From assembly GCA_003104975.1 (NCBI GenBank), contig PQAM01000010.1:486577-550576 (forward strand): a stretch of 64,000 nt of DNA, written 5' to 3'. This document shows, one piece after another, positions 14,354 through 57,318 of this stretch. The position numbers and the translations under genes are program-made. The notes beneath the pieces were generated by a model. That model did not search any database. It had not been told where the DNA came from and was given only the letters and a program-made list of their open reading frames with translations. The stretch is from Candidatus Methylomirabilota bacterium. Lineage in GTDB: Bacteria > Methylomirabilota > Methylomirabilia > Methylomirabilales > Methylomirabilaceae. Each line of letters opens with the position of its first letter. The stretch's first letter is position 1.

Positions 14354-14394
14354 TCGCGTGCTTACTTGCAAAAGTCAGCGATACGACAACAAGC

Positions 14395-14465
14395 CGTCAC
14401 CCCGGCGAAAGCCGGGGTCCAGAAGCTTATGGGAACTGGATTCCGGCTTCCGCCGGAATGACGAA
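14395..14465. repeat. palindromic intergenic repeat (REP/MITE-like)
   Basis: Two imperfect palindromes in tandem: CCCCGGCGAAAGCCGGGG, then an A/T-containing spacer, then GGATTCCGGC and GCCGGAATGA arms. The motif CATTCCGGN...NCCGGAATCCAG recurs at about 28343-28371 inside an integrase remnant, so this is a dispersed repeat family. It lies in the gap between the Hsp20-like gene and ybaK and could also act as a transcription attenuator. Confidence 0.6.
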
Positions 14466-14588
14466 TTGTGTACGCTAACTTTCGAATGAAGTACTAGGGG
14501 TGCGCGGCCAAATTGAACATGAGGCTATCGTAACGGCGCGCAGAGGCCTCGGTGAAGGGGCTATCGCCTGCGGGCAGGAGGTGCGGTC

Positions 14589-47679: not shown

Positions 47680-48534
47680 ATGTCCCTGATCGATCTACAC
47701 GCTCACTCGACCGCTTCAGACGGCGTACGTTCTCCCCAAGACCTTGTTGGTCTTGCGAAAGCGTCAGATATTGCCGTCCTGGCCGTCACCGATCACGATA
47801 CGCTCGAGGGGTTGCCGGCGGCCATAGCTGAAGGGGAACGGGTGGGACTGCAGATCGTCGCAGGCGTCGAAATCACCGCCCATGCGGAGGAGCTTGAGGT
47901 TCACATCCTTGGTCATTTCATTGATCCGTCCGATCACCAACTGGCCGAATTTTTGACCTCCTCCCGCAGTGATCGAATCAGGAGGGTGCATCGGATGATC
48001 GAAAAGCTCTGGACTCTCGGTCTCCCGCTTGACGTCGGTGAGGTCGTCAAGCTGGCGCCGGGCTATTCGGTCGGACGCCCCCATGTGGCACAGGCGATGA
48101 TCCAACGCGGGTATGTGACGTCGTTGAAGGATGCCTTCGACCGGTATCTGACATCCGGCAAGCCCGCCTATGTGGAACGATCCCGGATTCCTGCTTCTAT
48201 GGCGATACGTTCGATCAAGGCGGCTGGAGGTCTCGCATCTCTGGCGCACCCTGGAGATTACCACCGCGACGAGATCGTTCCCTTCCTTGTGCAGCACGGC
48301 CTTGACGGCCTTGAGGTGTATCATCCGGAGCATGACACGGAATCGGTATTCCGGTATGAGCGTATGCGTCTGGAATACGGCCTGGTGGCGGTCGGCGGCT
48401 CCGACTATCACGGCACCGGCGGCCTTCGCTCGATAGGGCTCGGGAGGCCGGCCCTGCCGGAGGCGCGGTTCGACGAGTTGGTCGCCGCATGTTCCGCTGC
48501 CCGCACCCACCCTCTTCGAACTGAGGTGGGATGA
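47680..48534 (+). CDS. PHP-domain phosphoesterase (TrpH/RNase AM-like)
   Basis: 284 residues. The metal-binding PHP motifs are DLHAHSTASDG, VTDHDTLEG, GVEITAH (Glu) and, at the end, GSDYHGTGG, as in YciV/TrpH nucleotide phosphatases that remove phosphate from 3',5'-bisphosphonucleotides or degrade RNA from the 5' end. The C-terminal GSDYHG with LARPALPEARF is normal. The yjbQ gene starts inside its stop (4-bp overlap), so they are coupled. Confidence 0.88.
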   Translation: MSLIDLHAHSTASDGVRSPQDLVGLAKASDIAVLAVTDHDTLEGLPAAIAEGERVGLQIVAGVEITAHAEELEVHILGHFIDPSDHQLAEFLTSSRSDRIRRVHRMIEKLWTLGLPLDVGEVVKLAPGYSVGRPHVAQAMIQRGYVTSLKDAFDRYLTSGKPAYVERSRIPASMAIRSIKAAGGLASLAHPGDYHRDEIVPFLVQHGLDGLEVYHPEHDTESVFRYERMRLEYGLVAVGGSDYHGTGGLRSIGLGRPALPEARFDELVAACSAARTHPLRTEVG

Positions 48535-48935
48535 CCCCGCAGATGCGCGAGTTTTTCGTCAAGACGACGCACAAGTATCAGGTGGTCGATATCACATCGA
48601 GAGTTCGGGAGATCGTGGCGCAGGACGGTCTGGAGGAAGGGCTGTGTTGTGTTTTTGTGCCGCATGCGACCGCGGCGGTCACCATCAACGAGAATGCCGA
48701 TCCCAACATCGGCGACGATCTTCAAGAGGCGTTAGGAAAGCTGATCCCGGAGGGGGTGTGGCGTCACGATCGGATCGACGACAATGCGGCGGCCCACATC
48801 AAGGCGACCATCCTCGGCCCGAGCGAGACGGTGCCGGTCAAGCACGGGCGGTTGGTGTTGGGCACCTGGCAGAGCATTATGCTCGTAGAGTTTGACGGCC
48901 CGCGCGAGCGGCGGATCATCGTCCAGGTCAGCTAA
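48531..48935 (+). CDS. yjbQ: YjbQ/UPF0047-family protein
   Basis: 134 residues. VPHATAAVTINENADPNIGDDL, the GVWRHDRIDDNAAAHIKATILGPSETVPV core and DGPRERRIIVQV are typical of the family, with the conserved His, Asn-Glu-Asn and Arg residues. It is expressed with the PHP gene (4-bp overlap). A near-identical but frameshifted copy lies at 55451-55854, on the far side of the reverse-transcriptase operon. Function in E. coli relates to thiamine phosphate, not proven here. Confidence 0.9.
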   Translation: MTPQMREFFVKTTHKYQVVDITSRVREIVAQDGLEEGLCCVFVPHATAAVTINENADPNIGDDLQEALGKLIPEGVWRHDRIDDNAAAHIKATILGPSETVPVKHGRLVLGTWQSIMLVEFDGPRERRIIVQVS

Positions 48936-48974
48936 GCGGTCCGGTGCTGCGTTGCGCCACGATGACCGGCTGGG

Positions 48975-50090
48975 CTACTGGGGGAAGAACTTGTAGATGA
49001 AGAAGCCGTGCTCGGGCTTCTCCTGGACAAATTTCATGGCCGAGATAAGAAGTTCCTGGTTGCCATCCCCGTCGATGTCTCCCACTGCTACGTCAGGGGT
49101 GTTCATATGGGTCGTGGCCCTGAGCTCAACCGTCGGCTGGGCCTCCATTCCTGTTGGCAGCTTGACCTCGTAGATCTCGTGTCCGCGAATGAAGAGGAGG
49201 TGGGGCCGCCCCAGCGCGCGCACGAGGACAAGCCTATTGCCCATGCATTCCTCAAACGGGAGGACAGACTGGGCCAACGCTCTCATGCCCTTGATCTTTA
49301 CATCATACCCGTAGACCTCGAATTGGCACTTCTTGTGGGGCTCGTCGTAGGTGGACGTCCCGTCTCCAAGGATCAGCAGTTCGTCACGCCCATCGCCATC
49401 CAGGTCCAAAGGGACGAGGCTCTGCACATCGTACTTGAGGTGGATCTTGGAACCCTGACGAAAGCCCTTACCCTCCCATGTGAAGAATACCACGTCGTCG
49501 AAAGCATATTCGGGGTCCTCCGGCATCCACCACGCCGCATCAATGGCCAGAGTTGTCAGCTTCGGGTCCACAAGCTTCCCGGCAACGAGAGCTTGGGGCT
49601 GGGCATCGAGGGGCACGCGAAACGTCTTCCGCTTCCACTGCTCCCCTTCTTTTTGAACCACTAGAAAGGCTCCTGCGGCTTTCTCCGGATCCTCGAAAAT
49701 AGGGGCATAGTAAATGAGCTCGCCTTTCGAGTTGCGATCGATATCGGCGACCACGAGTGCACTTAAGCTAACATTTCCCTCTTCGAGCATTCCAGTTTCT
49801 CTGAATGCCGCTAGGCTCCAGGTATAGAGATGTAGCTCAGTGAGACCGGCTCGCTGAGGGTTTCGGCTTTCAACGACGAGCACATCGGACTTCTCACCCT
49901 CCAGTCTGCCAGCGGCGAGGGTGCGGGTAAAGAGGTGGAGATTAGGGGCCAGAGTTTCCGAGAGGAAAAACGCTAGCTTAAGGGCGTCTCGTTGCGGCGC
50001 GGGAGGATAGGTCTCTGCCGCGCTTACTGTTCCCAAAAAGATCAGACCGATCGCGGCAACGGCGATAATAAGTGGACGCATGATTGTCAC
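48975..50090 (-). CDS. exported VCBS/FG-GAP-like repeat protein
   Basis: 371 residues. A signal peptide (MRPLIIAVAAIGLIFLGTVSAA, allowing the second ATG at 50081) is followed by a protein with repeated acidic loops: DIDRNSKGEL, DLDGDGRDEL and DIDGDGNQEL, i.e. DxDxDG calcium-binding loops as in VCBS/FG-GAP beta-propellers. No catalytic motif. It is the last gene of the operon that begins with the reverse transcriptase, and overlaps the upstream gene by 4 bp. Likely a periplasmic or surface binding protein. Confidence 0.8.
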   Translation of the reverse strand: MTIMRPLIIAVAAIGLIFLGTVSAAETYPPAPQRDALKLAFFLSETLAPNLHLFTRTLAAGRLEGEKSDVLVVESRNPQRAGLTELHLYTWSLAAFRETGMLEEGNVSLSALVVADIDRNSKGELIYYAPIFEDPEKAAGAFLVVQKEGEQWKRKTFRVPLDAQPQALVAGKLVDPKLTTLAIDAAWWMPEDPEYAFDDVVFFTWEGKGFRQGSKIHLKYDVQSLVPLDLDGDGRDELLILGDGTSTYDEPHKKCQFEVYGYDVKIKGMRALAQSVLPFEECMGNRLVLVRALGRPHLLFIRGHEIYEVKLPTGMEAQPTVELRATTHMNTPDVAVGDIDGDGNQELLISAMKFVQEKPEHGFFIYKFFPQ

Positions 50091-51217
50091 TGCTCCAAAA
50101 TGTTTGGGAAGTGGAAGTCAGAAACTCGTATGTAATCACGCCACTGACCATGGACGTGGGTAAGTTTCGGGGCGCAGTAGCTATAAGTTGCCCCTCCGTA
50201 GAGCTTCGCTCTTCTCGCAATTTCAACGCAATCGTCTCGTTTTCCTGGACCCCCTCCCTCATCCAGAATCGGTGACCAATCCACGGCCCAACCGTACTGG
50301 TGGAGGCTGTGATCTTTGGACCCTCGGTCCTTTTTGAGGGACTCATTGTACTGAGGGGTGCGGTAGGTGCTGGAACGATTATTCGCAAGTCGGTAGGCGG
50401 TATCTCTCTGTCGGGTCTGGCGCACCCAATCCGCATAAGCCGTCTGCGTGGCGGCCTCTCCAGCCGGCAGCTCGGGCTTGAGAGGGATGCGATCGCCTAC
50501 GAAGTCTTCTCGCGCAGGGACCTTGATGGCGTGGTCCACATATTGCTGGCGAACGGGGTCTGGGCTGCGCTCTGTCACGGTGACCGGGGTGGCGTCCCAG
50601 GTGTTCCCAAAGATGGTCACCTTCGCCATGAAGGTATAGGAAAGTGGCCCCGGCCTTCCGTCCTTCCCGTGAGGGGGCACATCAATCTGGGGCGTCCACG
50701 TTTCTCCCTGGCCGGTCAGGGTCGTCGATGGGCCACTGGTGGGATCAGCCGGCAGCTCCCAGCTAATCCCAGACGCGAACTGCGTATGGATGCGATCCGG
50801 CGAGATCGTCGCCGATGCCGTGAGGTTCGCCACCCGTGTCTCAGTCTCCGTGATAAACATCCAGGTTGCCTGGGGCTGGACGATGGTTAGCGTGGGGGCG
50901 ATGATCGCGATGGTGTGACTGGCCGAACATGGGGGACCTTTCGGGTTCAGATAATTGACGCTGATGGTCACCGTCTCCGGGCTGCTCCCTGTGTATGTGA
51001 AGGTGCCGGAAGCTCCCAAGGGGCTGAGGCCATGGGTCAGTGACCAGTCAAAGGACCCTCCTGGAACGGTGGCCGTTGCGGTCAGTGTGATGGTCTCGCC
51101 CACCACCGCCTCCGATGGCCCACTAACCGTGACGGTGCAGACCCAGGCATGGACAGGAGATTCCCACAGGACCAGCAGCACCCACCCCACGAAGAGACTT
51201 GCGGCGCGCGCCCTCAT
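50087..51217 (-). CDS. exported M15-type (VanY/DacB-like) peptidase with Ig-like N-terminal region
   Basis: 376 residues. The signal peptide is residues 1-25 (ending VHAW). Residues 27-120 look like an Ig/PKD fold (VSGPSEAVVGETITLTATATVPGG, TYTGSSPETVTISVNY). From about 240 the sequence matches zinc D-Ala-D-Ala peptidases: SLHQYGWAVDWS (SxHxxGxAxD) and HVHGQW for the last zinc His. It could cut peptidoglycan stem peptides. It overlaps both neighbours by 4 bp. A peptidoglycan hydrolase in a reverse-transcriptase operon is unusual. Confidence 0.75.
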   Translation of the reverse strand: MRARAASLFVGWVLLVLWESPVHAWVCTVTVSGPSEAVVGETITLTATATVPGGSFDWSLTHGLSPLGASGTFTYTGSSPETVTISVNYLNPKGPPCSASHTIAIIAPTLTIVQPQATWMFITETETRVANLTASATISPDRIHTQFASGISWELPADPTSGPSTTLTGQGETWTPQIDVPPHGKDGRPGPLSYTFMAKVTIFGNTWDATPVTVTERSPDPVRQQYVDHAIKVPAREDFVGDRIPLKPELPAGEAATQTAYADWVRQTRQRDTAYRLANNRSSTYRTPQYNESLKKDRGSKDHSLHQYGWAVDWSPILDEGGGPGKRDDCVEIARRAKLYGGATYSYCAPKLTHVHGQWRDYIRVSDFHFPNILEQ

Positions 51218-52668
51218 CGCGGCCTGACCCCTGTCGAACTCCCATCGCTTACGCTCTTCAGCCGCTTGGCAGCCTCCTTTTTCCAGACACCATCTCCACC
51301 GTCACCCACGGATTGATAGAGCTGAACGGCCTGATCCATGTGGCCGAGTCCTTCGTGAGCCCGACTCAGCTCATAGGTGGCGTAATCGTGATCTTTGTGC
51401 TTGGGATACCGGAACCGAAACTCCTCGTAGATCACCGCAGCCTCCGCGTGCCGCCCCTGATCCTGGCGAGTCTTGCCGAGCCAGAGATACGACTGGGAGG
51501 TGATCTGCTCAATGGCACTCTTGAGCCCGGGATCACGAGCCTGCCCTCTCAAGGTTTCGAACTCCGAGGCGATGGCGGCCGCCGCTTGTTCCACTACGTC
51601 GTAGCGGCCAACGGCATGTCCATGCCGCTCCATCTCGTAGTACGCCTTCATGGCCTCATAGCTTCCTGGCTGGGTCTCGATCACCTGATTGGCGAGGGCC
51701 AAGGCCGACGCAAAGGTTGCCTGGGCCAAAGCATGCTTCCCCTTCCAGTGGAGGTCTCGAGCAAAGTTCATCTGGCTGCGGTAGTCGGCAATGCCGTTGA
51801 CAATGTCGGCGATCTGTTTGAGCTCCTCCTCAGCCAGCTCTTTCCGTCCCGCGGCCCAGTGGCAGCTCACAATCCGCTGGTAGGCCTTTTGCACATAGAA
51901 GAGGTTTTGAGGGTAGCGCTCGATGTAGGCCCGGTAGTGGCGAATGGCTGCCTCACAATCCCGGGCGGCCATGGCCTTTCGACCGAGGAGGAAGAGGGCC
52001 TTCTTGGCAAAAGCATCATCACCCGGACGCTCAGCAATCCACTGGAGTAGGGCCTTGCCTGCCTCCACGTCTTCGTATTTGAGGTAGATCACGGCCAGGT
52101 CGTAGGTGTCTTTGGTCTCGAACGCTCGGGTCGGATAATGGCGTTGGAGGTGGCCGATAAGCTGTGCCTGAGCCTCACGCTCGCCGTGTTTCTCATAGGA
52201 GGCTAACAGCTTCGAAGCCGCCCGAAGCGCCACCTTGATCTCCTCAGGGCGTTGTGAGGTGGCGTGTTCGCTGACGATACGTGCGAGGAGCTGACGTCCG
52301 TCCGCCTCGGCGCCGTACTCCAGGTACATATGCGCCAGCCGCTCGAGGTCTTTCAAGTCACACTCCGGGGTGGGGTAGGTCGCTTTGAGGTAACTGACGA
52401 CCCGCTGAATCTCCTCGGTCTGCCCCTGGACTTGGTAGACTCTCAAGAGCTTCTGATAGATCGAGATCGAGGTCTTGATCTGCTGAGAAAATAGTGAGAG
52501 GCACTGCTGGTAGCGCGTGATCGCCTGAGCGTAGTTCTTGTCCCTCTCGGCGCTGAGGCCTTGCGTGAGGCACTCCTTTTCCCCGGCGGGCGCCTCCGAG
52601 ACCAGAAGGGGTATGCTCAGGAGGAGCAGGGCAAGGCTCAGTCCCACCTGTGCTCTTCGCGCCGTCAT
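51214..52668 (-). CDS. exported TPR-repeat protein
   Basis: 484 residues. After a signal peptide (about 1-29) come at least nine helical pairs of TPR type, for example YAQAITRYQQCLSLF, AIRHYRAYIERYPQNLFYV and AAVIYEEFRFRYPKHKDHDYATYELSRAHEGLGHMDQAVQLY (given here in parts). The last two repeats look like a YbgF/tol-pal-type TPR. It likely scaffolds the periplasmic products of the operon. Overlaps the nucleosidase gene by 4 bp and the peptidase gene by 4 bp. Confidence 0.82.
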   Translation of the reverse strand: MTARRAQVGLSLALLLLSIPLLVSEAPAGEKECLTQGLSAERDKNYAQAITRYQQCLSLFSQQIKTSISIYQKLLRVYQVQGQTEEIQRVVSYLKATYPTPECDLKDLERLAHMYLEYGAEADGRQLLARIVSEHATSQRPEEIKVALRAASKLLASYEKHGEREAQAQLIGHLQRHYPTRAFETKDTYDLAVIYLKYEDVEAGKALLQWIAERPGDDAFAKKALFLLGRKAMAARDCEAAIRHYRAYIERYPQNLFYVQKAYQRIVSCHWAAGRKELAEEELKQIADIVNGIADYRSQMNFARDLHWKGKHALAQATFASALALANQVIETQPGSYEAMKAYYEMERHGHAVGRYDVVEQAAAAIASEFETLRGQARDPGLKSAIEQITSQSYLWLGKTRQDQGRHAEAAVIYEEFRFRYPKHKDHDYATYELSRAHEGLGHMDQAVQLYQSVGDGGDGVWKKEAAKRLKSVSDGSSTGVRPR

Positions 52669-53486
52669 GGCGTAGCTTCTGGGGTGACAGGTGAGGACGA
52701 CATCTGCCTGACGAACTCCGTCACGATCTGGCCCAATCGTCCCTCAAAGCGTCGGAGCGAGTCCACGTACTCGTCCCCGGCCTGATCGCCTGCCCGGTCG
52801 GTGATGAGACGGATGAGGAGAAATGGCACGCCATGGGCTTCACAGGCCTGGGCCACAGCCGCCCCGGTCATATCCACGGCCTTGGCGCCGAAGCGTTTGA
52901 CCAGCCACTCCTTCTTCGGCTCGGAGGCGATGAACTGGTCGCCGGAGACAAGAGGCCCCTCCACGACATGAAATCCTCCATTCCGCTCTGAGAGTCGCAA
53001 GGCTGCCTCTCGTGCAAGGGTAGTGAACTTTCGCTGAGCCGCTGAGGAATCTTTTGTTCTCGACCCCTCGTTATCTCGCCCCTCCCAGATCAGCCCGTAC
53101 GGCTTCATGGTGCCGGTATCGTGCTCCAAGGCCGATTGGGCGATCAGGATATCGCCCGGCTCAAGCGCATTATCAAGGGCCCCGGCAGTCCCGAGGGAGA
53201 TGACCCTGTCCATGGGGAAGTGCTGGAGGAGCATCTGGGTGGTTATGGCATTCTGGATCTTCCCCCTGGGCGATCGGATGATCACCACCGGAACAGCGCC
53301 AATCCTCCCTGAGTAGAACTCTCGCCCATTCCTCACCACGACCCCTTCCCCTTCCATCGCCTTTCGGACCACCTTGAGGTCGGCTGTGCGGGCTACGATG
53401 ATCCCCAGGGCGGCCTGCGCCACGACCGGCAGCACAAGCGCGTGGAGGACGACGATCAGGCAGAGCGCCTTCCCCTTGAACGGCAT
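52665..53486 (-). CDS. exported nucleoside phosphorylase/nucleosidase-fold protein with substituted active site
   Basis: 273 residues with a signal peptide (MPFKGKALCLIVVLHALVLP... ending AQAA). The fold is PNP_UDP type: SLGTAGALDNALEPGDILIAQ near 97, and VDMTGAAVAQACEAHGVPFLLIRLITDRAGD near 195-225 (given as motif names). In MTA/SAH nucleosidases this last part reads VDMEGAA; here the catalytic Glu is Thr, while the Asp of xxxTD/SD is kept. It is either a changed-specificity enzyme or a binder. It begins 9 bp after the reverse-transcriptase stop. Confidence 0.8.
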   Translation of the reverse strand: MPFKGKALCLIVVLHALVLPVVAQAALGIIVARTADLKVVRKAMEGEGVVVRNGREFYSGRIGAVPVVIIRSPRGKIQNAITTQMLLQHFPMDRVISLGTAGALDNALEPGDILIAQSALEHDTGTMKPYGLIWEGRDNEGSRTKDSSAAQRKFTTLAREAALRLSERNGGFHVVEGPLVSGDQFIASEPKKEWLVKRFGAKAVDMTGAAVAQACEAHGVPFLLIRLITDRAGDQAGDEYVDSLRRFEGRLGQIVTEFVRQMSSSPVTPEATP

Positions 53487-53495
53487 GATCCGCCT

Positions 53496-54710
53496 TTAAA
53501 TCCTCCACTCCACACGCTTGAGCATGTCAAGCAGTTGCACCCCGGCCCTGGGATTTACCATGCGCGCGAGACTCACGCGCCCGCAGAGCGAACGCCTGAA
53601 GGCCTCCATGGCGAACCCGTCAGGGTCTTGGAGCCCCTTCTCAGTGAGGGCCCACCGAATCCGCTGGGTCTCCAAGTCCGCGGTGAGGCAGTTGTGGATG
53701 ACGGCCCGGAGCTTTTTCAGTTCCTGGCGAGGAAGGTTGGGTTTCTCATTGACGATCACGCCGGTGACCTGCTGTCGGCTCCCCTTGCGCATGACCCGGA
53801 TCTTCTCCTCGTGAACCTCAAACCCTTCCTCCCGGATGATTTCCTTGAAGAACGGAAGGCGCCGGACGATCCCCCCGTCCTCGCTGGAGATGGTCATGTC
53901 ATCTGCATAGCGGCTGTAGCGAAAGTTGAGCTGGTCCCCGAGGCGAGACAGTCTCAGATCGAGCCTCCGGCAGATCAGGTTAGAGAGAATCGGGCTCGTC
54001 GGTGCGCCGGTTGGAATAACATCGTGATAGGTGGTAAGCTGTGTCAACAGCAGCGCTACACCGTGAGGATAGCCGAGGGAGCCCAAGCACCCCAGAACCC
54101 GCTCGAAGGTGATGCTGGGGAAGAAGTCCTTCACATCCAGGTTGATGACGACCTGCCTGTCGAGGTGGAGCCGGGCGTTCGTCAGGATGGAGCGCTCTCC
54201 CCTGAAGCCGTGGGCGTCGGGATGGAGCTTGACCCGCTCCAGCAGTGCCGCGATTCGCTGCTGGATCTCCTTGAGCGGAGGTCTTGGGGCTTGGATCTTT
54301 CGCCTCTGGCCGTTTGCTTTGGGGATGGAGAAGACGTCGTAGTATCTGTCGGTACAAGTGGCGAGATCCGAGAGCTCGTTTTCGGAGACCTCTAAAAGTT
54401 TGGCGAGATGGGTACGAGTCAGGATGGGGATAAGCCCCCGTTGGACCATGGCCTCGGCGTAGGTGCTGAGAAAACTCAGGGCCCGGGGATCCAAGTGGCG
54501 GTTGGCTTCCAGGAGGGCCCTGACGGCCTTCCTCCGGCTTCCAGGTAGGTCGGCATCCTCGCTGTAGAAGGTGACCTTGTCCCCCTGCTGGAGGCGGATC
54601 CGGGCATAAGCGGCCAAGAGGTCTACCAATTCAGGTTCAACCCCGGCCCTCAGGTTGACCTGGATCAGGTTTCTGATGAAGGCCTCTTTGTCCTCATCCC
54701 ATCGAGCCAT
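53496..54710 (-). CDS. retron-type reverse transcriptase
   Basis: 404 residues. The core runs from about 120 to 340: KIQAPRPPLKEIQQRI, HGFRGERSILTNARLH with the retron NAxxH motif (178-182), the first metal Asp in NLDVKDFFPSI (192-200), GAPTSPILSN (235-244), YADD (268-271) with SRYADDMTIS, and VTGVIVNEKPN (VTG 315-317), the second retron hallmark. The N-terminal 110 residues are helical and have no obvious domain. No group II maturase, DGR or CRISPR-Cas1 part is present. The start ATG (54710) lies 20 bp beyond a 135-bp structured region that looks like its msr-msd. First of five genes in the downstream operon. Confidence 0.9.
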   Translation of the reverse strand: MARWDEDKEAFIRNLIQVNLRAGVEPELVDLLAAYARIRLQQGDKVTFYSEDADLPGSRRKAVRALLEANRHLDPRALSFLSTYAEAMVQRGLIPILTRTHLAKLLEVSENELSDLATCTDRYYDVFSIPKANGQRRKIQAPRPPLKEIQQRIAALLERVKLHPDAHGFRGERSILTNARLHLDRQVVINLDVKDFFPSITFERVLGCLGSLGYPHGVALLLTQLTTYHDVIPTGAPTSPILSNLICRRLDLRLSRLGDQLNFRYSRYADDMTISSEDGGIVRRLPFFKEIIREEGFEVHEEKIRVMRKGSRQQVTGVIVNEKPNLPRQELKKLRAVIHNCLTADLETQRIRWALTEKGLQDPDGFAMEAFRRSLCGRVSLARMVNPRAGVQLLDMLKRVEWRI

Positions 54711-54729
54711 GGCGCCCTTGCTCGAAAAA

Positions 54730-54864
54730 GTGAACCGGGGTCCCTTTTACTGAGACTCCTGAGCACGTAGCCGTCACGGCTACGTGCGCTGGCATGCATC
54801 GTGCGCGTCCCGCGTAGCGCGAGACCCTGCCGGATGGCAGATCTAAAAGAGGGCCCCGGTTCAC
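54730..54864 (-). ncRNA. candidate retron msr-msd RNA
   Basis: The region between the Cys-rich gene and the reverse transcriptase is closed by an inverted repeat: 54730-54749 with 54844-54864, 19 of 20 positions paired, starting with 11 perfect base pairs (GTGAACCGGGG/CCCCGGTTCAC), as for retron a1/a2. Inside, in minus-strand order, are three hairpins: a 5-bp stem with 4-nt loop (54840-54827), an 8-bp stem with 3-nt loop (54825-54807) and an 11-bp perfect stem with 3-nt loop (54787-54763). Short msr-like hairpins near a1 followed by a longer stem near a2 is the retron layout. The priming G cannot be fixed by eye. The a1 arm overlaps the stop of the upstream gene. Confidence 0.6.
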
Positions 54865-55217
54865 ATCCTGACCAACGAGAGGGAAAGGTACGGCTTAGGA
54901 GAGGTTTTGAGGTACGCCATGTTTGGGAAGGGGATCTGGCAGCACGCCGGGATTTCCCCTCTTCCGCTCAGGCATCCGTCGCATCGCCTCTCCTTTTTCT
55001 CGCACGCGATGTCGTACACGAGCCGCTGCAGATGGATCCCGCAATTTGCGCAGTAGGTCCGATATTCTCGGGGGAGTGGACGATGGAGGCTTCCACACTT
55101 CCGGCAGCGCAATCCCTCTTCGGCCCACCCCTTCTCGGCGCCAAGACCGAGACCAATGATTACTGAGGCCTTGAGGGTGACTCCCATAAACCCTCGCCGA
55201 GAGATCTCTCTTACCAT
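54861..55217 (-). CDS. small Cys-rich protein with twin-arginine signal
   Basis: 118 residues. SRRGFMG at 6-12 is a Tat motif (S/T-R-R-x-F-x-x), followed by a hydrophobic stretch to about 30. The mature part has zinc-ribbon-like CRKCGS and CANCG pairs and more Cys (CEKKERRCDGC, CC). The family is unknown. It is the first gene after the promoter at 55341-55313 and ends inside the putative msr-msd a1 arm. A Tat-exported metal protein suits the periplasmic character of the operon. The gene could also be unrelated to the transcriptase. Confidence 0.6.
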   Translation of the reverse strand: MVREISRRGFMGVTLKASVIIGLGLGAEKGWAEEGLRCRKCGSLHRPLPREYRTYCANCGIHLQRLVYDIACEKKERRCDGCLSGRGEIPACCQIPFPNMAYLKTSPKPYLSLSLVRM

Positions 55218-55312
55218 CTTCCACCCGCCCCCCTCGGACCTTACGCACTGAGCCGGATCGCCTCCTCACCCTCGTCTGTCAGCCGCTCTGGACGAAAAGA
55301 TGAATATTGCTG

Positions 55313-55341
55313 TATAAATCAAAATCATAGGAAATTGTCAA
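55313..55341 (-). promoter_or_regulatory. sigma70 promoter of the reverse-transcriptase locus
   Basis: On the minus strand TTGACA (55341-55336), 17 bp, TTTATA (55318-55313), in an AT-rich stretch. Expected start near 55306, 90 bp before the Cys-rich gene, so one transcript could cover 55306 to 48975. Confidence 0.65.
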
Positions 55342-55450
55342 GAAAAAAAGCATATACGGTAGAAATATGATCAAATATGATTAACTCTCACTTTTGTGAT
55401 AGAAGAGCAGTATACATAGTTCTGGCATTCAACAGCTCAAGTCAAGCGAA

Positions 55451-55854
55451 ATAACGCCGCAGATGCGCGAGTTCTCCGTCAAGACGACGCACAAATTGCA
55501 GGTGGTCGATATCACGTCGAGGGTTCGGGAGATTGCGGCACAGGACGGTCTGGAGGAGGGGCTGTGCACGGTCTTTGTCCCGCACGCGACGGCGCCGTCA
55601 CCATCAACGAAAATGCCGATCCCAACATCGGCCTGGATCTCCAGGACGCGCTGGTGAAGCTGATTCCGGAGGGGGTTTGGCGCCACGACCGGATCGACGA
55701 CAACGCGGCGGCCCACATCAAGGCGACCATCCTCGGCCCGAGTGAAACGGTGCCGGTGAAAAACGGAAAGCTGATGTTGGGGACCTGGCAGAGCATCATG
55801 TTCATGGAGTTCGACGGCCCCCGCGAGCGCCGCGTCATCGTCCAGGTCCGGTGA
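55451..55854 (+). pseudogene. decayed yjbQ copy (start codon lost, 1-nt deletion)
   Basis: 404 bp that align along their whole length with the 405-bp yjbQ at 48531-48935. The start codon is ATA instead of ATG, and one base is missing near 55590-55596, which changes VPHATAAVTINEN to a frameshift after VPHATA. The downstream part (GAVTINENADPNIGLDLQDAL...IIVQVR-type) is otherwise intact. It is non-functional unless a downstream start is used. Confidence 0.88.
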
Positions 55855-55936
55855 AGACGGTGTTGCCGCGGCGGACAATGCCGCCAAACGTCTTACCTAT
55901 CAGTTGCTGAGAGATCCGAACGGCGGCAGGGGCGGG

Positions 55937-56191
55937 TCATGCCGTGTCCACGAAGGTTGCAACCGGCACTTTCTCCTGCTTGGTCAACTCGCGCCAGTGT
56001 AGCCGCATTCGCTCGAGTTCCTTGAGCGTCTCAGCAGTGAGATAGCTCTCGCCGCAGCTCAAACAACTGACAACGGGCACGTTACGTACGAGGAAGCTGG
56101 AGCTGCCCCTGCCGACGGTCTGTGTCAGGCGTCGGACCTTCGCACCGTTCTTACCGCAGATATCACACTTCATATCATCGTATACTACCAT
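55937..56191 (-). CDS. YgiT/MqsA-type zinc-finger antitoxin-like protein
   Basis: 84 residues. CDICG and CLSCG (two CxxC pairs about 35 apart) form the N-terminal zinc finger of YgiT/MqsA-type proteins. The C-terminal half is short, with no helix-turn-helix. In similar loci a DUF4258 toxin gene sits upstream; here only a short frame (DPRPDATRIEW) remains upstream, so the toxin seems lost. Start ATG 56191 or 56173 (MKCDICG). Confidence 0.72.
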   Translation of the reverse strand: MVVYDDMKCDICGKNGAKVRRLTQTVGRGSSSFLVRNVPVVSCLSCGESYLTAETLKELERMRLHWRELTKQEKVPVATFVDTA

Positions 56192-56362
56192 TCTATCCGC
56201 GTGGCATCAGGTCGAGGGTCGTCACGATATGTGGAATTCTCTAGTCATTCTACGGGGTTGTCAACGAAATTTCAGAAGAGCCCACGGGGGCGGTGCCGCC
56301 ATGCCTGGCGGTGTGCTCATGGGCGTGAAAGTCTGTTGGGAGACCGCGCCACTCACTGACTC

Positions 56363-56459
56363 GTCATTGCGGGCGACCGGAGGGAGCGCGGCAATCTCAG
56401 CGTTTTTCAGATTGCGGAGAACGGTGAGATTGCTTCGTCGCGGCGCTCCTCGCAATGAC
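56363..56459. repeat. 97-bp palindromic repeat, copy 2
   Basis: GTCATTGCGGGCGACCGGAG at the start and CTCCTCGCAATGAC at the end, with GCAATCTCA and TGAGATTGC inside. Same family as 37927-38016. Confidence 0.75.
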
Positions 56460-56551
56460 CGACACGGGAGACTTTTGGAACAATGATGCGGACGGGAATA
56501 GGGGAGTGTTGGCCTGGGCATGATGATTCAACCCCCTAAGGCATAACTGGG

Positions 56552-56597
56552 TTGACATTGAGCGGTGCTAGTACCATAATGGTTCCATATTGTAACC
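56552..56597 (+). promoter_or_regulatory. promoter and operator-like palindromes of the vapBC-type pair
   Basis: TTGACA (56552-56557), 17 bp, CATAAT (56575-56580). The palindrome ACCATAATGGT (56573-56583) covers the -10 box and a near-palindrome GGTTCCATATTGTAACC follows (56581-56597), as expected for autorepression by the antitoxin-toxin complex. Confidence 0.6.
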
Positions 56598-56613
56598 GTT
56601 AAGGAGGCTCAAC

Positions 56614-56856
56614 ATGCCAGCGATTACCGTCAAAAATATTCCTCCTGATCTATACGAACTGCTCAAACGGTCGGCTGCGGCCAACCGGCGCAGCATCAAT
56701 AGTGAAGTGATTACCTGTATCGAGCGTGTGGTGCGGGGCCGGAAGATCAACACTGAGGCTCTGCTCGCGCGCGCACGAGAGCTGCGCCGGCAAACCAGGC
56801 GTCATCCAATCGCTGACAGTACATTCAAGGCAGCCAAACTTGTGGGCCGCCCGTGA
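56614..56856 (+). CDS. FitA/VapB-type antitoxin (ribbon-helix-helix)
   Basis: 80 residues. PAITVKNIPPDLYELLKRSAAANRRSINSEVI is the Arc/FitA ribbon-helix-helix, followed by an Arg-rich tail that binds the toxin. GTTAAGGAGG 6 bp upstream is a strong ribosome-binding site. Its stop overlaps the toxin start by 4 bp. Palindromes in the promoter are its likely operators. Confidence 0.9.
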   Translation: MPAITVKNIPPDLYELLKRSAAANRRSINSEVITCIERVVRGRKINTEALLARARELRRQTRRHPIADSTFKAAKLVGRP

Positions 56857-57257
56857 TCGTCGTCGACACAAATATAATCGGCTATTTGTACCTGGAAAGC
56901 GTGCATTCGGCGCAGGTTGAACGAGTCCTGCTGAAAGAGGGGGATTGGGCCGCGCCGTTGCTGTGGCGGAGTGAGTTTCGAAATGTGCTCGCCCTGTATA
57001 TTCGCAAGCGATGGTTGTCGTTAGAGGAGAGTGGGCAGATCATGAGTGAAGCGCTTAGCTTCATGGATGGTAACGAGTACCATGTTGACTCTGAACACGT
57101 GCTGAAGTTGGTTGCTGCGAGTTCGTGTTCGGCCTACGATTGCGAGTTTGTAGCGCTTGCCCAGGACCTCGGGATTACCTTGGTGACGGTCGACCAGCAG
57201 ATCCTGCGTGACTTCCCCGAGGTGGCCGTGTCGTTACTGGGCTTTATCGGTACCTAG
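56853..57257 (+). CDS. vapC: VapC-type PIN-domain RNase toxin
   Basis: 134 residues. PIN-domain metal ligands: VVDTNIIGYLY (Asp 4), WRSEFRNVLALY (Glu), and the C-terminal SAYDCEFVALAQDLGITLVTVDQQIL (Asp pair). It degrades RNA, often tRNA, when free of its antitoxin. GTG start overlapping the antitoxin gene; translation-coupled pair. Confidence 0.9.
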   Translation: MIVVDTNIIGYLYLESVHSAQVERVLLKEGDWAAPLLWRSEFRNVLALYIRKRWLSLEESGQIMSEALSFMDGNEYHVDSEHVLKLVAASSCSAYDCEFVALAQDLGITLVTVDQQILRDFPEVAVSLLGFIGT

Positions 57258-57318
57258 GCTTAGCTGTGAGAGGGCTGATACGGCATTATTCCGAGCCCTC
57301 AGAACAAGTCAAGGAAGC

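Follow-up and report, generated by a model that had tools for sequence, protein, structure and literature searches.

The element at 54864-54730 on the minus strand of the window (the whole stretch of 64,000 nucleotides that was analysed) is, we conclude with high confidence, the msr-msd RNA of a retron, and the gene at 53496-54710 encodes its reverse transcriptase (RT). Very probably this is an untyped retron of a known kind that is carried by an insertion. What the analysis shows directly is where the RNA lies, what structure it is predicted to form and to which family the RT belongs. A first-pass annotation of the same DNA had read the element as a retron msr-msd 5′ of an RT, and this reading is supported by the profile, motifs and fold of the RT and by the anatomy of the RNA, element by element. 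With it, the known retrons gain an RT and its RNA from a lineage that none of the catalogued types includes; the RNA is short, no known effector adjoins it, and the host genome bears an AMO/pMMO-family gene. An active locus could serve as a compact msd scaffold and would allow a test of whether retrons that lack an effector rely on partners yet to be recognised.

Anatomy of the RNA element

Sequence and fold both confirmed the 135-nt minus-strand element in the place that the annotation had given for it. Its parts, and the tract that follows it, are:

54730-54864, minus strand: candidate retron ncRNA (msr-msd), 135 nt, supported by shuffle z, leader rank and its site before the RT ATG
54844-54864, minus strand: a1 arm; the upstream ORF, with its stop codon at 54863-54861, reaches 4 nt into it
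54843, minus strand: candidate priming (branch) G in a UAGA context directly 3′ of a1, proposed from the sequence and the rule in PMC6868368
54827-54840, minus strand: msr hairpin 1, 5 bp with a 4-nt loop, pair probabilities 0.88-0.96
54807-54825, minus strand: msr hairpin 2, 8 bp with a 3-nt loop, pair probabilities 0.87-1.0
54763-54787, minus strand: msd hairpin, 11 bp with a 3-nt loop, pair probabilities 0.87-1.0
54730-54749, minus strand: a2 arm, with G54750 just before it, as in Eco1 (..C-G-UAA..)
54725-54729, minus strand: U-tract (TTTTT) directly 3′ of a2, a possible terminator or attenuator

Arm 54864-54844 pairs with arm 54749-54730 over a perfect stretch of 11 bp, followed by a C-A mismatch, two more pairs, a bulge and a final 6 bp; this agrees with the annotated perfect stretch, mismatch and bulge, and we counted 19 bp. 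They enclose 94 nt with the 5-bp, 8-bp and 11-bp hairpins, and the RNA ends 19 nt before the RT ATG (54710), again as had been proposed and as fold and coordinates bear out.

We compared this anatomy with the features of retron RNAs given in the review PMC6868368. Complementary ends of ~8-30 nt are described there, and those found here 5′ of the RT comprise ~19 bp. The priming G is placed where a1 ends on its inner side, either within the arm or as the next nucleotide (TAGC, CAGA, CAGC, GAGC or ACGC); G54843 lies in UAGA, between TAGC and CAGA, and has a putative priming role. The annotation had proposed to look for a conserved unpaired G after a1. A G stands directly after the arm; it was predicted to be paired with a probability of 0.74, in a weak inner (alternative) helix, and is thus not clearly unpaired. 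The same text gives one to three msr hairpins of 7-10 bp with loops of 3-10 nt and one msd hairpin of 10-50 bp, and it states that Eco1 needs an 8-bp stem with a 3-nt loop for RT binding. Hairpin 2 (8 bp/3 nt) falls within the msr range and hairpin 1, at 5 bp, below it; the 11-bp msd stem lies near the short limit of its range.

The element is strongly structured. The 160-nt fold had an energy of −77.4 kcal/mol (z −4.67), and none of 200 dinucleotide shuffles was equally stable. For the exact element the GC-adjusted energy residual was z −4.36 among 8516 windows of 135 nt on both strands, with one place better, 14366-14500. When 135-nt leaders of all ORFs of at least 150 aa in the window were compared, the RT leader ranked first of 103 for GC-adjusted stability (z −3.47). 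As a separate observation, the minus strand of 14366-14500, which has the best 135-nt stability for its GC in the window (z −5.89), contains CATTCCGGCGGAAGCCGGAATCCAG-type repeats and is probably a dispersed repeat.

No homologous RNA was found for the element in searches of phylum genomes, viral sequences and plasmids, and a DNA search with the leader among plasmids gave none. Rfam returned no meaningful match in the element; this carries no weight, because at the gathering score Rfam also misses Eco1 and five other retron-bearing loci.

Eco1 (Ec86), of type II-A, is among the closest known systems. Both RNAs lie 5′ of the RT in the order a1-G-hairpin-hairpin (8 bp/3 nt)-msd-a2, and both carry UUA-G after a1 and G-UAA before a2 (the Eco1 sequence, L052, served as a control). 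In both, the upstream gene ends within a1, by 13 nt in Eco1 and by 4 nt in the window. Eco1 was also the best match to the predicted RT fold (Z 28.2, 29% identity). The two differ in the length of the RNA (169 nt in Eco1 versus 135 nt), in the short, 11-bp msd stem of the window and in the ~90 extra N-terminal residues of its RT. The NDT effector of Eco1 has no counterpart at this locus, where the upstream gene looks exported.

The reverse transcriptase

The ORF downstream of the element encodes an RT, as annotated, and by profile, motifs and predicted fold it is a retron RT.

53496-54710, minus strand: retron RT, 404 aa, RT core ~90-404, assigned by PADLOC, Pfam, motifs and fold

The N-terminal extension of ~90 residues lies outside the matched profiles. 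Pfam matched the 404-aa ORF to RVT_1. In PADLOC the top match was RT_XIII with 318 bits, and the best 25 of 69 families were all retron RTs. The NCBIfam retron models scored 209-239 bits versus 59 bits for the group II maturase, values below the retron models' own curated cut-offs, which were set for other retron families. The motifs of retron RTs were found, namely NAXXH (N178..H182), YADD (Y268-D271) and VTG in region Y (315-317), and the key residues N178, H182, Y268-D271 and V315-G317 were invariant in an alignment with 13 relatives. The nearest solved sequences are those of retrons Ec86, Ec67 and Kva2. When the predicted structure was compared with known folds, the best 14 matches were all retron RTs (Z 20.6-28.2) and the next RT scored 18.8; the model has a mean pLDDT of 78.6 and low confidence in the N-terminal extension (pLDDT <50 over most of 1-64).

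We infer the transcription, branch point, msDNA and function of the locus as follows. The RNA would be transcribed together with the RT gene and closed by the a1/a2 stem, and the RT would bind the 8-bp/3-nt hairpin. The 2′-OH of G54843 would prime DNA synthesis on the stretch of template that immediately precedes a2, where the first copied base is probably about A54751. Copying of the 11-bp hairpin would then yield a branched msDNA that is short, very roughly 40-55 nt. Transcription may stop or be attenuated at the U-tract 3′ of a2, in which case only part of the transcripts would reach the RT. If the locus works like the retrons studied so far, its RNP-msDNA would restrain an effector until it is disturbed by a phage.

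Relatives and retron type

The RT is present as a single copy in its own genome. Among the 95 genomes of the phylum no close relative was found, the only matches being two distant RTs at 33-35% that fit the type VI profile best. Two other species of the genus carry different retron RTs (L004 and L005, in congeners G032 and G033), for which the type VI profile was best. A search of genome contigs gave 15 loci with RT relatives at 36-45%, the nearest being type XIII retrons (retron types are named here as in PADLOC). One viral contig RT matched at 32%, and 59 plasmid and 15 phage records matched, all below 60%. Among the papers searched, none named both "retron" and "Methylomirabilis".

None of the PADLOC retron types suits the RT; its best match is type XIII, yet only at the level of outsiders. 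With the RT_XIII profile, the window RT scored 318 bits versus 562-604 for six members, and two outsiders (RT_other and a III-A member) scored 307 and 331. In the tree the type XIII clade (100/100) excluded the window RT, whose placement was weakly fixed among long branches. PADLOC detected no adjacent WGR/HEAT-ARM or SWIM gene, and one query found no SWIM gene genome-wide. Membership of type XIII was therefore rejected on profile score, tree and the absent WGR/SWIM genes.

The type XIII loci nevertheless resemble the window in several respects: an RT that has an N-terminal extension and is immediately preceded by an RNA, a hairpin of 8 bp with a 3-nt loop and, often, a T-run after a2. They differ in their longer RNAs (207-244 nt between outer arm ends, versus 135 nt in the window) and in their WGR/HEAT-ARM and SWIM genes, none of which adjoins the window RT. 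Of the 15 relative loci, 12 have a recognisable RNA before the RT and were folded; L009, L015 and L020 were dropped as they showed no convincing arms, L015 having only 134 nt upstream. Ten of the 12 RNAs were aligned, with L017 and L019 omitted as near-copies of L018. In these ten, the arms and the 8-bp/3-nt hairpin covary, with 11 pairs changed on both sides, and 97.3% of cells were paired versus 30-56% in slid controls. This covariation supports the template used for comparison, not the window RNA itself.

We also compared the RT with the PADLOC RT_other/RT_outgroup group, represented by L047 from a Burkholderia plasmid. L047 shares the N-terminal extension and has no recognised effector adjoining it in the record annotation. 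It differs in scoring 482/455 bits versus 277/269 for the window RT, and the two do not group together in the tree.

Neighbouring genes

The genes around the RNA and the RT are:

54861-55217, minus strand: 118-aa ORF in the position of the Eco1 effector, with a Tat-like signal (SRRGF, by eye) and CxxC motifs
52665-53486, minus strand: MTA/SAH-nucleosidase-like protein (PNP_UDP_1), which starts 9 nt beyond the RT stop and has an N-terminus resembling a signal peptide
48975-52668, minus strand: three more ORFs with 4-bp overlaps, TPR, M15/VanY-like (by eye) and FG-GAP, with signal-peptide-like starts by eye

No retron effector profile of PADLOC was matched in the four neighbours scanned, so the locus did not show the composition of a tripartite defence system. 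On these neighbours PADLOC gave a PN-superfamily "Effector" match on the nucleosidase (5.7e-7) and one marginal match (0.0047). In the nucleosidase alignment D and T stand where the E. coli MTA nucleosidase has its catalytic glutamates E12 and E174. This protein is a possible, weakly supported effector. By its position, the 118-aa ORF is possibly tied to the retron. A search of plasmids and of 94 further genomes of the class found no match to its product, and neither it nor the nucleosidase (at E 1e-20) was matched in 14 congeners; the TPR protein had no match in 94 relatives. Elsewhere in the same insertion, 55937-56191 and 56614-57257 hold a YgiT-like zinc-finger ORF and a VapBC-like pair (by eye); two ORFs of this set were scanned and gave no PADLOC match.

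The locus could conceivably be a new retron type, in which a compact RNA and an uncatalogued RT lineage work with a partner outside the known effectors, either the 118-aa CxxC protein or the nucleosidase. As both look exported, such a system would act on or through the cell envelope, and its a1/a2 stem and U-tract would set the RNA:RT ratio by partial termination. The evidence for a partner protein of a new sort is positional, and we consider this extended reading doubtful.

T-runs after the 3′ arm and alternative explanations

The annotation had stated that no T-run follows the arms. This is wrong, as TTTTT (54729-54725) stands directly after the 3′ arm, and the argument it made against a terminator rests on that false statement. 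Among the type XIII RNAs, 7 of 12 have a T-run of at least 4 within 15 nt after a2, versus 2.25% of random 15-mers from the same loci. With automatically chosen arms, a T-run was found in 8 of 25 retron loci versus 2 of 208 control ORFs; this search took other arms than the manual choice in L008, L017 and L019. The loci are partly close relatives, and the T-run counts are not independent. T-runs of at least 4 directly after the 3′ arm were seen in L010, L011, L012, L013, L014, L016, L045 and L046 as well as in the window (54725-54729); Eco1 has just three T after a2. Because T-runs also follow the arms in the type XIII RNAs, the T-run is no argument against a retron. The a1/a2 stem and T-run may also end or attenuate the RNA. 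Since U-tracts recur behind a2, retrons may adjust their RNA and RT levels in this way, an idea that lends itself to testing.

A reader could still take the arms and T-run for a structured terminator or attenuator of the 118-aa gene, the RT having no RNA here or one encoded elsewhere. The stop codon lies within a1, TTTTT follows a2 directly and the stem before it has 11 GC-rich bp, all of which would suit a terminator. We nevertheless consider this very improbable: three more hairpins, in retron order, lie within the 113 nt that the perfect stem spans, a terminator scan (loops of 3-8 nt only) found none at the element, the RT family needs an msr, no other ORF leader in the window is so structured, and T-runs after the arms recur at the frequencies given above for type XIII RNAs, retron loci and controls. 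The element may be both a terminator and a retron RNA. Still harder to credit is an inverted repeat that, in this GC-rich genome, arose by chance or acts at the DNA level (as a cruciform or the site of a regulator), even though the arms by themselves offer little against it. The window holds 5 exact 11-mer inverted repeats with a span of 80-200, where 40 Markov shuffles averaged 3.1, and duplexes with an energy similar to that of the a1/a2 arms are common by chance; the arms were thus rejected as stand-alone evidence, being no rarer than chance in repeats or duplex energy. Moreover, folding energy does not fix the strand, because both strands fold equally well (−75.1 versus −76.4). Against chance stand the whole element, which is an energy outlier, its site 19 nt before a retron RT and an order of elements that fits the RT strand.

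More serious, if still unlikely, is that the retron has decayed and travels as a passenger of the insertion, with the RT intact and either an RNA that no longer makes msDNA or a lost effector. The latter half overlaps with the msr-msd reading that we prefer, as it too makes the RNA that of a retron. The short msd, the lack of a known effector adjacent to the RT and the broken copy of yjbQ that the insertion also contains are consistent with decay. Against it, the RT is open over 404 codons with its catalytic motifs, the RNA structure is intact and strong, and, according to PMC12548924, Retron-Bth1 makes RT-DNA without an apparent effector.

Genome context

The retron lies in a stretch of DNA that interrupts the yjbQ-lipA neighbourhood.

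48936-57318, no strand assigned: 8.4-kb insertion that separates yjbQ from lipA and contains the retron, defined by comparison with congeners

We regard 48936-57318 as an insertion because in five congeners (L025-L028 and L032), which do not have it, the end of yjbQ adjoins the lipA side. The other five congeners with a yjbQ match comprised four with no lipA within the 1.5 kb examined and one, L034, with other DNA between the two genes. Two copies of yjbQ, 85% identical, flank the retron part in the window (48531-48935 and 55451-55848), the second of them frame-shifted and inside the insertion; congeners have a single copy, which adjoins lipA in five. The genome of the window also has an AMO/pMMO-family gene (G000:C19:1399-2097), consistent with a methane oxidiser.
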